Source: Nitrospiraceae bacterium
GTDB taxonomy: Bacteria; Nitrospirota; Nitrospiria; Nitrospirales; Nitrospiraceae
Direction of reading: 5' to 3'
Assembly (NCBI GenBank): GCA_919902665.1
Contig: CAKKRK010000046.1
Location: forward strand, 1-40,389
DNA: 40,389 bases
Below are positions 5,040 to 12,720 of the stretch, one piece after another (the stretch's first letter is position 1; each line of letters begins with the position of its first letter). The notes beneath the pieces were generated by a model. The model saw only the letters and a list, made by a program, of their open reading frames with translations, was not told where the DNA came from and made no database searches. A program made the position numbers and the translations under genes.

Positions 5040-5405
5040 TTAGTCGATTTTACGATCACCGGTAATTTTGGTTGCAGAGGTCACCGGTGGAGCAATGGTG
5101 ATCTGAGGTCCCTGGACATTTGGAAGTCTGCCGGCACCCTGTCCTTCCGTGATACGCTCATTATCGGTTTTCATCAGTTTCTGTTCCGCGTTCTTGACCG
5201 AATCTGCGGATTTCAGCAGTGAGGAGGTTCCGTACGCATCCGATTGGCCTGGATCGTTTGCTGTTGGTTGGCCGGTCACGGGGCTGCCGGAGTTCTTCAT
5301 CGGATAACCGTCATGTTTGGGGAGCAGTGCCGGATTGGCCGATGCCATGGAAATTCCAAATAGGACTGCGGAGGCTGTTGCAACTACAACGGTCAAGAGT
5401 TTCAT
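5040..5405 (-). CDS. Small exported hypothetical protein
   Basis: Protein of 121 aa with a clear N-terminal signal peptide (MKLLTVVVATASAVLFG, cleavage after ASA). The mature part is polar, Gly/Pro/Asn-rich and probably disordered, with no recognised domain. Two ATGs are available. The AGGGAG ribosome binding site lies only 1 nt from the first (5411) but 7 nt from the second (5405), so I chose the second. It converges on the DNA glycosylase gene and shares its terminator. Function unknown, probably periplasmic. Confidence 0.7.
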   Translation of the reverse strand: MKLLTVVVATASAVLFGISMASANPALLPKHDGYPMKNSGSPVTGQPTANDPGQSDAYGTSSLLKSADSVKNAEQKLMKTDNERITEGQGAGRLPNVQGPQITIAPPVTSATKITGDRKID

Positions 5406-5602
5406 ACCCATTCTCCCTTTGAGCTATGACAATGGATAAACATCATTCAGCGTATTCAATTTGGATGACTCTATCTGAGGCGTGAATCATAGCGATGGAG
5501 GGTCATTCTGTCAAACGGGTGAGACATGACGGACAGTATCTCTCGAATCCCACTGTGTTGTGATGAGCCGTGGGTGGTGAGAGCGAGAAAAGGACAGACG
5601 TA

Positions 5603-7429
5603 TCAGCTCGGTCGACGAGCGGGACGGCGTCCACGCCCACGGTGCCGAAATGCCGGTCCTCGGCTGACACCAGGCAGACGGATGGTGACGGTCGTGCCCT
5701 CGCCGGTCGCGCTTCCGATCGCAATGGACCCACCGTGTTCTTCGATGATTTTCTTAACGCTGGGGAGACCGAGGCCAATACCTGAGCTCTTCGTGGTGAA
5801 AAAGGGTTCGAAAACTTTGTCGACGATTTCAGCGGGAATCGGAACCCCATCGTTCTTAATGAGAATCTGAACTTCAAACCCCCGTCCGGCACGATGCTGT
5901 GAAACCTGGATATGGAGGTGGCCGCCTGGAGACATGGCTTCACACGCGTTCCTGAAAATGCTCAAGAAGGTCTGTTGGAGCTTGGCTTCATCGCCGCGCA
6001 CCGGCGCAATGATAGTCGCGTAGTCTTTGGTGACCTGAATACGAGTCGCTTCCAGGTCGGTTCCGACCACCACGAGGGCGCTTTCGAGTACTTCCGGAAT
6101 GCGGCAGAGATGGCGATTCAGTTCGAGCGGCTTGGCGAAGTCGAGAATCTCATTGAGGATCGCCTCAATCCGGATCAAGTCACGCATGGCATTCTCAACC
6201 CGTGTCTGAGGGTCGAAGTCGAGGATCCCTTCACCGGTCACTTCTTCGAGTTGCGAGCGAATGGATGCGAGCGGCTCGCGAATTTCCGTCGCCAAGAATG
6301 CGCTGAATTCGCCAATCGCGGCCTGACGTTCTTGTTTTCGAATGATTGGCTCAGACGGGACGGGTATGGGTGACCATGGGCCCGCAGTTCCATCGGGATC
6401 CGTCGTCGGAGCAGGAGCGGCAGCCTGTGGCGCCGGTGCCTGTAAGAGCTCCGCGAGTTTAAGAATAATGGGCTCCAGCGTGCGGGCATCGGTCGTCTGA
6501 TATCGTTGTGGATCCTTCGATCCCAGTGTAAAGGTCCCGCCGACCTGGCCCTTGACGAAGAAGGGGATGACAAGTGACGACTGAAACCGGTCCTTGAAGA
6601 GATGTTTGTGATCGAGAAAGCGACCTTGGGTAGATGCCAGATCATGATCCACGCGTGGTTTACGATGGCGGACGGCCCATCCCGCCGCCGAACTGTCGAG
6701 CGTCAGGCGTTGACCGGGCTTTAAATCTTTCTTGGCGTCTTTGGGGTCGAGTTTCACATCGCCGGCAGATCCCAAGACCTCGACATTGCCCGCCAGCGGA
6801 TCGTAGCAGCACGCCCAGGCTCGATCATAGGCCACATATTCATGCGCGTCGGCCAACACCGACTCGATCTTTTCTTGGAGTTCTGGTGAAAAGTGCTTGG
6901 CCATCGGCGGAAACAAGTCCGCTCCGGTTTGTTGAGGAGGACTCGGCTCCTGGGTGACGTAAGAACGACTCAACATCACGCTGGTGTTGAAGAGTCCTTC
7001 GCGGTCCAGTGTCTTGGTCATGCCGTCGCACATCTGCTCCAGCTGAGATTTGTCCTTTTTGGAGAACGCGGCGTTCTCCTTCCGTCCGATGACCAGGCAC
7101 CCGTACACGGTATTGACATGGCGAAGCGGAATGATCAGCAGAGATTTCGCCCCGGGGGTGATCACCCGCAGGCGGATGGCACGCCCACCGTCAGGATCTT
7201 GGGTTGTCGGAGTCAAGGCGGCGGCACGTTGCGTCGAGAGCGTGCGGAGAATAGCTTGGACATCTCTCGGTGTGAATCCGCGCGACGCATGCTCAACAAG
7301 CGGGCCATTTTCTTGGTGGAAGATGGCCGCCATTGCGGCATCTGTGCCGATGTCGTTCAACGCGGCATTCAACGTCCGTTGAAGAAGCGTTTCCGGGGCC
7401 GGTTTGGTTTGAGCAGGTACAGTAGTCAT
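5603..7429 (-). CDS. GAF-GAF sensor histidine kinase-like protein lacking the phospho-accepting His
   Basis: Protein of 608 aa with no membrane segment. Two GAF-like sensor domains (about 10-145 and 175-330) are followed by a Pro/Ala-rich linker, a dimerisation/H-box region (365-435) and a HATPase_c domain (440-588). The ATPase part keeps the N box (RNACEAM), F box (FEPFFTTK) and G2 box (GIGLGLP); the G1 box is NDGVPI instead of DNGxGI. In the H box the expected HEIRNPL reads TEIREPL: the His is Thr381 (codon ACG, complement of 6287-6289). Ordinary autophosphorylation on His is therefore not expected. A basic Arg-rich tail ([12 protein letters not shown]) ends the protein. No response regulator gene is adjacent. 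It may be an ATP-binding scaffold, an allosteric partner of another kinase, or a decayed kinase. Confidence 0.88.
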
Positions 7430-7510: not shown

Positions 7511-8029
7511 TCAATCCCTCGGCATTTTGTCGGGGTCGAGTTCAACCAATCGCAATCGCCCATTGGCGATGTGGTCAGTTTTATAGATCCGATCACCAAT
7601 CTGGATGGTTCCGATCAGAAGATTGCCGGTGATGACGAAGGTGAAGTCGCCTTGGACAGGAGGCTTGAAAGTCCCGCGAATGACGGCGGTGTTGTTGATA
7701 CGGGAGACCGTGGAGCTGACGTCCAGTTCAGGGTTGGTATTATCGAAGAGCTCAATGGTGATTCTAGGAAGCGGTCTGGCTCCTGCATCCTTTAGGATCT
7801 GGAGGAGTGGGTCGTCGAGTGTGATCTCTCGTTCGCGAAGCATCCATGGCTTTGGTGGTATCGGTGGTTGGCCAGTGGAGGAAGACGTCAGGACGGAGTG
7901 CCACAAGCCTTTTGGTGTCGGTGGCTCATCAGCCCACGCAAGCGGGCCAACCATGATCCCCACGACTACAGCGAGGAGAACATAACTGAATCGGTGAATC
8001 ACAGAATCGTCATTCCGGGCTAGCCTCAC
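7511..8029 (-). CDS. Exported hypothetical protein, possibly peptidase-prodomain-like
   Basis: Protein of 172 aa. A signal sequence of about 33 residues (hydrophobic VLLAVVVGIMVGPLAWA) precedes a Pro-rich linker and a C-terminal beta-rich module (about 95-172). The pattern RGTF, then GDFTFVITGNLLIGTIQIG, then VELDPDKMPRD resembles the prodomain-type segment seen before some secreted zinc metallopeptidases, but no catalytic domain follows. That likeness is a recollection of pattern, not a firm family call. The gene lies 81 bp upstream of the kinase-like gene's start codon region and on the same strand, so the two may be cotranscribed. Confidence 0.65.
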   Translation of the reverse strand: MRLARNDDSVIHRFSYVLLAVVVGIMVGPLAWADEPPTPKGLWHSVLTSSSTGQPPIPPKPWMLREREITLDDPLLQILKDAGARPLPRITIELFDNTNPELDVSSTVSRINNTAVIRGTFKPPVQGDFTFVITGNLLIGTIQIGDRIYKTDHIANGRLRLVELDPDKMPRD

Positions 8030-8929: not shown

Positions 8930-9388
8930 TCAATCCGGATTGATAACTTTTGGAGGGCGTCGCGGTTCGTCGGGGACCTCTGCGAGAGGGCTACGGTCGA
9001 CGGTCCAGCTGTTGAGGATGGTGGTGACCAGACTGATGATCAGTGCGCCACCGACAGCAGGCCAGAACCCTGAGACGGTAAACCCCTTGACCAGGAACGC
9101 GGTCAAGCCCAGCAACAAGGCGTTCAAGACTACGAGAAAGAGGCCGAGTGTAAACACGATCAATGGCAAAGCGAGCAGAAAGAGAATAGGCCGCAGGATC
9201 ACATTCAAGAACGTCAGAATCAGCACGGCGGCAATGCCGGCCGTCAGGCTGTCTGCTTCCAGGCCGGGGACGATTGAGATCGCCAGGAAGACCGCGATTC
9301 CTGTGATGAGAATACGCATGAGCGCATGGCGTATTCCTCCGTGGAACGGGGATTCGTGGACAGTTCTCGCAAAACGAATCATCGGCAT
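8930..9388 (-). CDS. YvlD-type membrane protein ('phage holin family', DUF360-like)
   Basis: Small inner-membrane protein with four hydrophobic segments (ILITGIAVFLAISIVPGL, AAVLILTFLNVILRPIL, then FTLGLFLVVLNALLLGLTAFLV and a last helix around GGALIISLVTTIL). The NVILRPILFLLALPL pattern is characteristic of the family annotated as 'phage holin 4_2' or YvlD. Despite the name these are usually chromosomal proteins of unknown role, sometimes linked to envelope stress. The true start is likely the internal ATG at 9319 (MRILITG), as the first 23 residues look unrelated. It follows the next gene on the same strand with only a few bases between. Confidence 0.78.
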   Translation of the reverse strand: MPMIRFARTVHESPFHGGIRHALMRILITGIAVFLAISIVPGLEADSLTAGIAAVLILTFLNVILRPILFLLALPLIVFTLGLFLVVLNALLLGLTAFLVKGFTVSGFWPAVGGALIISLVTTILNSWTVDRSPLAEVPDEPRRPPKVINPD

Positions 9389-11667: not shown

Positions 11668-12261
11668 GAGGACTCGCTCGTGTTAGGGGCTTGGCTTCAA
11701 CTCGCGCGGAGAGTAACAAACGATTTGGGATGAGTCAAACGGGAGGGGTGGGAGAGGGAACTCGTGGTCTCCTGTGCTCGCACACCGCGCACGCGGGGGA
11801 GAGGTGTTTATCCCGTCGCCAAGATCATTGCAATAGGCTCCGGGTCGAATAAGTTCTGTTTGGTGCTCGGTGCATGCACGCGATTATGAGACAATGCGGG
11901 TTATGTAAAAGGAATCAGGGCTGGGTGATCGTCATGTGCTCGAGGGTGAATCTTGACGGTAACACTGGATCAGAGGAAAATGCGTCGTGTTTCGCAATGT
12001 GTTGGTCCAACAGGAACAGGTGCCGTTCTCACTGATCGGAGTAGGGATGATTGTGGCGCATGATTCTGACGAATCATTGGCGCGTTACAGATTAGTCGAA
12101 GATCCGGCTCTTGTACGGACGGCCTAAACATTGTTTGGGCGACGCTTTGCGTCACTTAAACAGTTCCCGGTAAGCGCTCGTAGTTCGAACCGCGAAGCGC
12201 ATCCCGAATCAGCGGCTGCACAACCTCCGGTTGCTCCGCGCCGCCGTTAATGCTTTACACC
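11668..12261. other. Gene-poor intergenic region
   Basis: About 590 bp with no recognisable gene. A plus-strand frame around 11986-12126 starting from GTG encodes about 46 residues (containing SLIGVGMIVAHDSDES) with no known domain and no clear ribosome binding site. A compact hairpin region follows at 12132-12162 (TGTTT, GACG, CGTC, AAACA nested arms). The stretch looks like remnants of inserted or decayed sequence. Confidence 0.4.
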
Positions 12262-12720
12262 ATGTCTGCTTTCCGCAACATTATCCGCGTCGATCATGAG
12301 GCAAGCCGAACCCATGCGTGGCGGGTCACGGTGCAACGACACAACGATATCGCCGTGAAGACGTTCTCCGATGCAATCCATGGAGGGAAAGGCAAGGCCT
12401 TGAAGGCGGCTGAGGCCTATCGAGATGAACTGCTTCGGCGATACTCAGCCTACGTCCATGCCATTTGGGTCCGTACTCGCCTTCGTCGGAACAATACATC
12501 GGGTATTCCAGGCGTCGGCAGATACGAACAAGTGGACAATCCAACGACCGGGTCCGTTCGTGTCTTTTGGTTGGCCTCCTGGGTCGACGAACAAGGCGAC
12601 AGTCGTAAGCGCAAGTTCATGGTGTCTCACTATGGAGAACGCCAGGCTAAGCGTCTTGCCGTCGCAGAGCGTGAGCGTCAGCTGAACCTTGTCTGTGCCA
12701 CGAAGAGTGGCCGTCTATGA
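12262..12720 (+). CDS. AP2-domain protein with two AP2-like units
   Basis: Protein of 152 aa. The first unit (about 5-55) has the pattern IIRVD, then HAWRVTVQR, then KTFSDAIHGGKGKALKAAEAYRDEL. The second (about 75-140) has SGIPGVGRY, then WLASWVDEQG, then KFMVSHYGERQAKRLAVAERE. Both match the three-strand-plus-helix AP2/ERF DNA-binding fold, which in bacteria occurs in homing endonucleases, integrases and small stand-alone proteins. A role in DNA binding is likely; the target is unknown. It lies among decayed sequences (a broken DUF4926 gene directly behind), which fits a mobile or recently acquired stretch. The start could also be the ATG at 12250. No good ribosome binding site is seen for either. 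Confidence 0.75.
   Translation: MSAFRNIIRVDHEASRTHAWRVTVQRHNDIAVKTFSDAIHGGKGKALKAAEAYRDELLRRYSAYVHAIWVRTRLRRNNTSGIPGVGRYEQVDNPTTGSVRVFWLASWVDEQGDSRKRKFMVSHYGERQAKRLAVAERERQLNLVCATKSGRL

Follow-up and report, generated by a model that had tools for sequence, protein, structure and literature searches.

A Nitrospirales-wide histidine kinase homologue, with threonine at the acceptor position in most members, probably a GAF-controlled pseudo-histidine kinase that signals by docking

How a protein with the fold of a histidine kinase (HK) might signal once its phospho-accepting His has been replaced is the question raised by one gene of the 40,389-nucleotide stretch of DNA analysed here (the window). 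The original prediction placed a Thr at the acceptor position, described the N, F and G2 boxes as kept, saw two GAF domains and no membrane part, and proposed either a scaffold switched by ATP or a ligand, with an intact ATPase, or phosphorylation on Thr. Its structural points held in alignments and Pfam searches (Table 1): residue 381 is Thr (codon ACG), N494 and the F and G2 boxes are present, and the two GAF domains correspond to Pfam GAF_2 and GAF. No membrane segment was evident in the 608-residue protein; since no 19-residue Kyte-Doolittle mean exceeded 1.48, the protein is considered soluble by hydropathy, which argues against membrane anchoring. The protein is probably a pseudo-histidine kinase under GAF control that, like DivL or NifL, works through docking: its retention across the order Nitrospirales, despite loss of the residues that make or remove the phosphate, indicates that partner binding, and not phosphorylation, is probably its means of signalling.

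Table 1. Positions, in the window, of the predicted pseudo-histidine kinase gene, its parts and its neighbours
Feature	Positions	Strand	Basis or remark
Pseudo-histidine kinase gene, 608 aa, GAF-GAF-DHp-CA-Arg tail	5603..7429	-	ORF and Pfam
GAF1 (Pfam GAF_2), residues 12-140	7010..7396	-	Pfam; fastest-evolving domain (pN/pS)
GAF2 (Pfam GAF), residues 184-319	6473..6880	-	Pfam
GAF2 signature, residues 247-273	6611..6691	-	Family alignment; near-invariant order-wide
DHp (HisKA), residues 373-433	6131..6313	-	Pfam, 29.7 bits, slightly above cut-off
Thr381 (ACG), replacing the phospho-accepting His	6287..6289	-	Sequence and alignment
Glu385 (H+4), Asn/Thr in phosphatase-competent HisKA kinases	6275..6277	-	Alignment; PMC3510030
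CA (HATPase_c), residues 479-586	5672..5995	-	Pfam, 81.8 bits
N box, residues 490-500, N494 retained	5930..5962	-	Alignment
Altered G1 box NDGVPIP, residues 526-532, Asp to Asn and second Gly to Pro	5834..5854	-	Alignment
F and G2 boxes, residues 540-555, retained	5765..5812	-	Alignment
Arg-rich C-terminal tail, residues 587-608	5606..5671	-	Alignment, charge count
Small signal-peptide-like protein, ANPALLPKHxGYP family	5040..5411	-	Directly downstream of the pseudokinase
Sigma-70-like promoter of the small protein gene, TTGACA-17-TATGAT	5486..5514	-	Conserved upstream element
PF04020 holin-like membrane protein gene	8930..9388	-	Upstream neighbour in f1 and f3

Using a threshold of E <= 1e-40, the gene was found in 222 of 235 Nitrospirales genomes, nearly always in single copy, in 149 of 153 good-quality genomes and in all 37 genera of the order. 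A phylum-wide sample of 295 genomes yielded it in 97, every one in Nitrospirales, and among the matches listed, a family member with 73% identity to the window protein was present in Nitrospira sp. palsa_1310 (L176). The family is thus real, ancient and order-wide; no publication on it was among the papers listed by literature searches. One genome (G017) carried two copies, L005 and L060, with 97% and 80% identity to the window protein, through contamination or true duplication. The codes f1 to f4 are used below for the four families within the order.

Comparison with true kinases was performed at four positions: the acceptor, the residue four places after it (+4), the Asp of the G1 box and the second Gly of that box. 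A profile survey of the genome carrying the window gave 87 family matches (35 HisKA and 52 HATPase_c), and 60 of these 87 loci were kept, providing 40 distinct kinase-like rows besides the window protein; the acceptor column was His in 34/34 readable rows, and the G1 Asp and Gly were present in the 36 rows readable at G1 (36/36). Kinases from many phyla (100 rows from 79 loci, 92 readable) had His in 92/92, the G1 Asp in 90/92, the second G1 Gly in 91/92, and Asn or Thr at +4 in 85/92, with Glu in none (0/92); these loci were chosen, among the matches listed, by a conserved F-box pattern, which biases the set towards intact kinases. The window protein deviates from them at all four positions. 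Its family has an acidic +1 residue throughout, and at +4 the 93 family rows read Glu 80, Arg 9, Pro 2, Asp 1 and Gln 1, with Asn or Thr in 0/93. The Asn or Thr found there in HisKA kinases is described as needed for phosphatase activity (PMC3510030), and loss of both autokinase and phosphatase activity is predicted from the residues.

The ATP site departs from the usual pattern as well. The G1 box, normally D-x-G-x-G, reads N-D/N-G-x-P-I-P in the family: the Asp is Asn in 87/87 readable f1-f3 rows, and the second Gly is Pro in 86/87 (Gln in the remaining row), with the N, F and G2 boxes conserved. The change of Asp lies at what we take to be the equivalent, in the shared GHKL fold, of a known Hsp90 position. 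Asp-to-Asn in Hsp90 is a standard nucleotide-binding-defective mutant according to PMC10148809. The f4 orthologues (L056, L057, L058, L059) went further: the N-box Asn is Cys, the G1, F and G2 boxes are lost, and HATPase_c was detected only under the Pfam cut-off in the three proteins scanned; GAF2 is retained and, where the C-terminal end is present, so is the basic tail. From f1/f3 through f2 to f4, the series represents a graded loss of the catalytic core with the sensor retained. With G1 altered in f1-f3 and the ATP site lost in f4, the ATPase cannot be called intact, and this part of the original prediction, which did not name G1 among the retained boxes, falls; a non-phosphorylating, ligand-controlled scaffold, the other part, fits well. 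The CA domain would be at most a weak nucleotide-binding clamp, discarded in one family. Nucleotide binding may be more important than that, given the conserved N, F and G2 boxes of f1-f3 and purifying selection on CA.

Three other readings bear on this site. The first, which we hold possible though unlikely, takes the HK core to have been turned into a phosphate-free, ligand-gated adaptor of a core GAF receptor. The G1 box would be a repurposed pocket with a changed preference, for example for ADP or a guanine nucleotide, and the tail would carry the output to something acidic, such as nucleic acid; the changed preference is proposed because of pairing options that Asn has and Asp lacks. On this reading, f4 has been reduced to sensor, dimer region and tail. 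The second, also unlikely, is a nucleotide-state switch of the NifL type, in which CA senses ADP/ATP and gates docking, with GAF input secondary. Retention of the CA fold and of three boxes in f1-f3 is consistent with it, as is the report that NifL binds ATP and ADP without hydrolysis, with ADP making the NifL-NifA complex more stable (PMC9866876), but the G1 Asp is gone, and f4 has GAF2 and the tail without an ATP site. Little probability, finally, is given to a half-kinase working in a heterodimer, whose CA would bind ATP and phosphorylate in trans an intact partner kinase on its His: the replacement across f1-f3 of the second Gly and of the G1 Asp, the latter matching, in our assignment, the Hsp90 change described as a binding-defective mutant (PMC10148809), and the absence of N, G1, F and G2 boxes from f4 weigh against it, while conservation of N, F and G2 in f1-f3 and a CA pN/pS of 0.095 (a comparative value, see below) speak in its favour.

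Selection was compared between domains using pN/pS over 20 genomes, with the values usable only as a comparison since pS, at 0.53-0.75, was near saturation: DHp 0.028, CA 0.095, GAF2 0.107, tail 0.12 and GAF1 0.201. A true HisKA kinase of the same 20 genomes gave 0.074 for DHp and 0.157 for CA, and a second one (12 genomes) 0.168 and 0.259. The low DHp value suggests a docking or dimer surface retained without its chemistry. Positions common to all four families numbered 63 of 608, distributed as GAF2 29, GAF1 11, DHp 10, CA 10 and tail 1, with the remainder between domains. GAF2 is therefore the most constant part order-wide, its common positions including R254, H255, K257, P258, R259, D261, L264-F271 and D273; a DNA pattern for this motif matched 102 of the 257 collected loci, all of them family loci.

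The tail, in which Pfam recognised no domain, carries 6-11 basic and 0-2 acidic residues in its last 26 in every row shown of the four families except L059, which ends at a contig end (f1 is represented by 8 rows in this comparison). Its net charge in the window protein is +9, against +5 for the next kinase row of the same genome and values near 0 for most. One could propose that the output is a nucleic acid or other acidic surface bound by this tail, the DHp merely dimerising. We regard this as improbable: the exceptional charge and the presence of a basic tail in every row with its end present, in all four families, agree with the proposal, yet in f1 constraint is strongest on DHp (pN/pS 0.028 vs 0.12 for the tail, again as a comparison), and the tail holds no recognised domain.

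An adjacent cognate response regulator is common for histidine kinases, without being obligatory. None was present among the ten window neighbours profiled. Receiver domains number 97 in the genome carrying the window and 15, 9, 9 and 6 in four streamlined genomes (G156, G207, G211 and G275, respectively), all of which retain the pseudokinase. Among the matches listed, 27 of the 28 canonical kinases of these four genomes had a receiver gene no more than about 2.5 kb away, and the pseudokinase had none near it in any of the four; pairs were matched by eye, frames resembling GyrB, MutL or HtpG were set aside by length and score as a matter of judgement, and a few weak receiver matches lie outside the listed receiver set. 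Without a paired receiver, the partner would be a protein of another pair, an orphan receiver or a protein outside two-component systems. A competent HisKA histidine kinase was rejected as an identity on the missing acceptor His, the lack of Asn or Thr at +4, the altered G1 box and the absence of a regulator from the neighbourhoods profiled here and in the four streamlined genomes.

Of the 84 loci that extend > 350 bp past the pseudokinase, a set in which some genomes figure twice, 79 have the small protein gene directly downstream; the other five comprise four f4 loci and L077, which carries it 4.6 kb off. Of 198 genomes from across the phylum, 55 had relatives, all of them Nitrospirales, with extra copies elsewhere in many genomes, and the protein itself had no Pfam or NCBIfam match. 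A TTGAC[AC]-N15-19-TAnnnT element precedes the gene in 76 of the 79 loci. Given this conserved promoter element, its link to the pseudokinase is regarded as positional; the gene probably has its own promoter, co-transcription with the pseudokinase not being required. The PF04020 gene was not found beside the pseudokinase in f2 and f4, and isoprenoid and carotenoid genes lie beyond it. Between it and the pseudokinase is a gene for a putative secreted protein of 172 aa (7511-8029, - strand), seen at the locus, of 40 large loci, only in near relatives L110 and L111. An AP2-domain-like protein (12250-12720, + strand; PF00847 slightly under cut-off) is encoded further on; its gene adjoins the locus in 1 of the 40 large loci (L111) and is possibly mobile.

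The acceptor position was followed across orthologues after setting aside 22 redundant loci of 115 (the same as another locus or nested in one), and leaving out one match without H box (G020). The 93 distinct sequences, which sample position 381 in about 92 of the 222 genomes that hold the gene, read Thr 77, Gln 7, Ala 2, Ser 2, Gly 2, Met 1 and His 1, with one gap. Thr thus stands in 77/92 readable rows. Its codons were ACG 45, ACC 17, ACA 12 and ACT 3, and this use of four codons indicates that selection, not a frozen codon, maintained Thr in f1 and f3; the residue may thus have a role of its own. Other families differ: Gln plus one His in f2, Ser or Gly in f4. Met was found in L075 (G156), a streamlined genome of the window protein's own genus. 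A tree constructed without the H box (50 of 94 alignment rows) required at least 7 changes at the acceptor position. The sole orthologue with His (L055, 118-1110, + strand, genome G053) is a 331-residue piece from a genome 71% complete; it has Arg at +4 and an altered G1 box, and grouped with a Gln row inside f2 (support 94/75). Its His is more plausibly the result of a reversion than an ancestral remnant.

That Thr381 is itself a phospho-acceptor, through autokinase activity or a Ser/Thr kinase, as the original prediction also entertained, is very improbable. Its maintenance through four codons would suit such a role, but orthologues have Gln (7), Ala (2), Gly (2) and Met (1) there, the Met row within the same genus, and Thr phosphorylation was rejected as a general mechanism. 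A recent mutation, sequencing error or decaying pseudogene is refuted, a few copies elsewhere with a stop or split (G031, G267) notwithstanding, because His occurs in 1/92 readable rows and lies inside a Gln clade, the other 91/92 are non-His, the gene is under strong purifying selection, and it is kept while receiver genes drop about tenfold.

Structure models agreed with the assignment to the HK fold. The full-length model was of moderate quality (pLDDT 72.7, pTM 0.36) and weak between domains, and no inter-domain claim is made from it. Using Foldseek, its kinase core matched HK structures, with ZraS best among chains comprising the kinase core only and DivL (4q20) at rank 20 (E 2e-14, 24% identity). 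GAF2 alone gave a good model (pLDDT 88.9, pTM 0.85) with near-equal matches to many GAF domains (Z 17.3 down to 13.7), spanning free-Met sulfoxide reductase and cAMP-, cGMP-, haem- and bilin-binding GAFs. Structure comparison of this model pointed to no ligand, and searching solved structures by sequence brought up no more than a marginal GAF match (3o5y, E 0.073). A nitrate-sensor reading (NreA-type GAF) found nothing here in its support.

In the docking mechanism that we prefer, the tandem GAFs, chiefly GAF2, would bind a cytoplasmic ligand, and the resulting change would be transmitted to the helical bundle of DHp. No longer a carrier of phosphate, this bundle would, as in DivL, offer a response regulator or a second cellular kinase a surface to dock on; the analogous module in NifL docks on an AAA+ activator. 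CA would contribute little beyond weak nucleotide binding, and the Arg-rich tail may add a further contact.

Few pseudo-histidine kinases have been worked out, and literature searches yielded DivL, NifL and one laboratory-made case. The present family is natural and order-wide, includes Nitrospira, and has a docking domain more constrained than that of two true kinases of the same genomes. It also persists where receiver domains number nine or fewer; two of these streamlined genomes, G207 among them, have only seven canonical kinases each, all with a nearby receiver gene, leaving a short list of possible partners. The role of a dead kinase in the cell is thus directly testable, and the interest of the family lies mainly in its core status and few possible partners.

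Among known systems, the closest curated NCBIfam models over DHp-CA were AtoS and ZraS (169 and 136 bits, both far below cut-off). These are membrane kinases with an acceptor His; the window protein is soluble by hydropathy and has none. The ChrS variant of Corynebacterium glutamicum resembles it as a kinase-dead sensor that alters signalling via a paralogous kinase (PMC9491836). The variant, however, is a laboratory-evolved CA-domain frameshift with its His present, whereas the Nitrospirales family is ancient. NifL, the anti-activator of NifA, resembles it as an offshoot of the HK fold that works through protein contacts: it binds nucleotide without hydrolysing it and reaches NifA through its H and GHKL regions; in the K. 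pneumoniae lineage it is described as having little GHKL likeness left, comparable to f4 (PMC9866876). It differs by its PAS/FAD input, a reported conserved His in the H domain and its target NifA: Pfam found GAF and no PAS in the window protein, and no NifA-type protein was present among the ten window neighbours profiled.

What characterises DivL proper is binding to a phosphorylated regulator of the DivK type, together with control of CckA. Like the present family, it combines an HK fold with a non-His acceptor position (Tyr, or Ala in one species), and it has an essential docking role in Caulobacter and other alphaproteobacteria (PMC4211667). The same source describes it as having no kinase or phosphatase activity, sensing a phosphorylated regulator, and binding an ATP analogue > 19 times more weakly than most kinases; it has PAS input and, according to its authors, keeps all boxes. 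The Nitrospirales family, from a different phylum, has instead two GAFs, Thr, Gln, Ala, Ser, Gly or Met at the acceptor position, an altered G1 box, no Asn or Thr at +4 and an Arg-rich tail. DivL proper was rejected as its identity, with Thr instead of Tyr and two GAFs instead of PAS. An HK fold without acceptor His in a conserved family, by which pseudo-histidine kinases of the DivL-like kind are recognised, is what the alignments point to, and the analogy best supported is that of a protein that would work like DivL yet is not DivL, having GAF input, a different acceptor residue and further losses.
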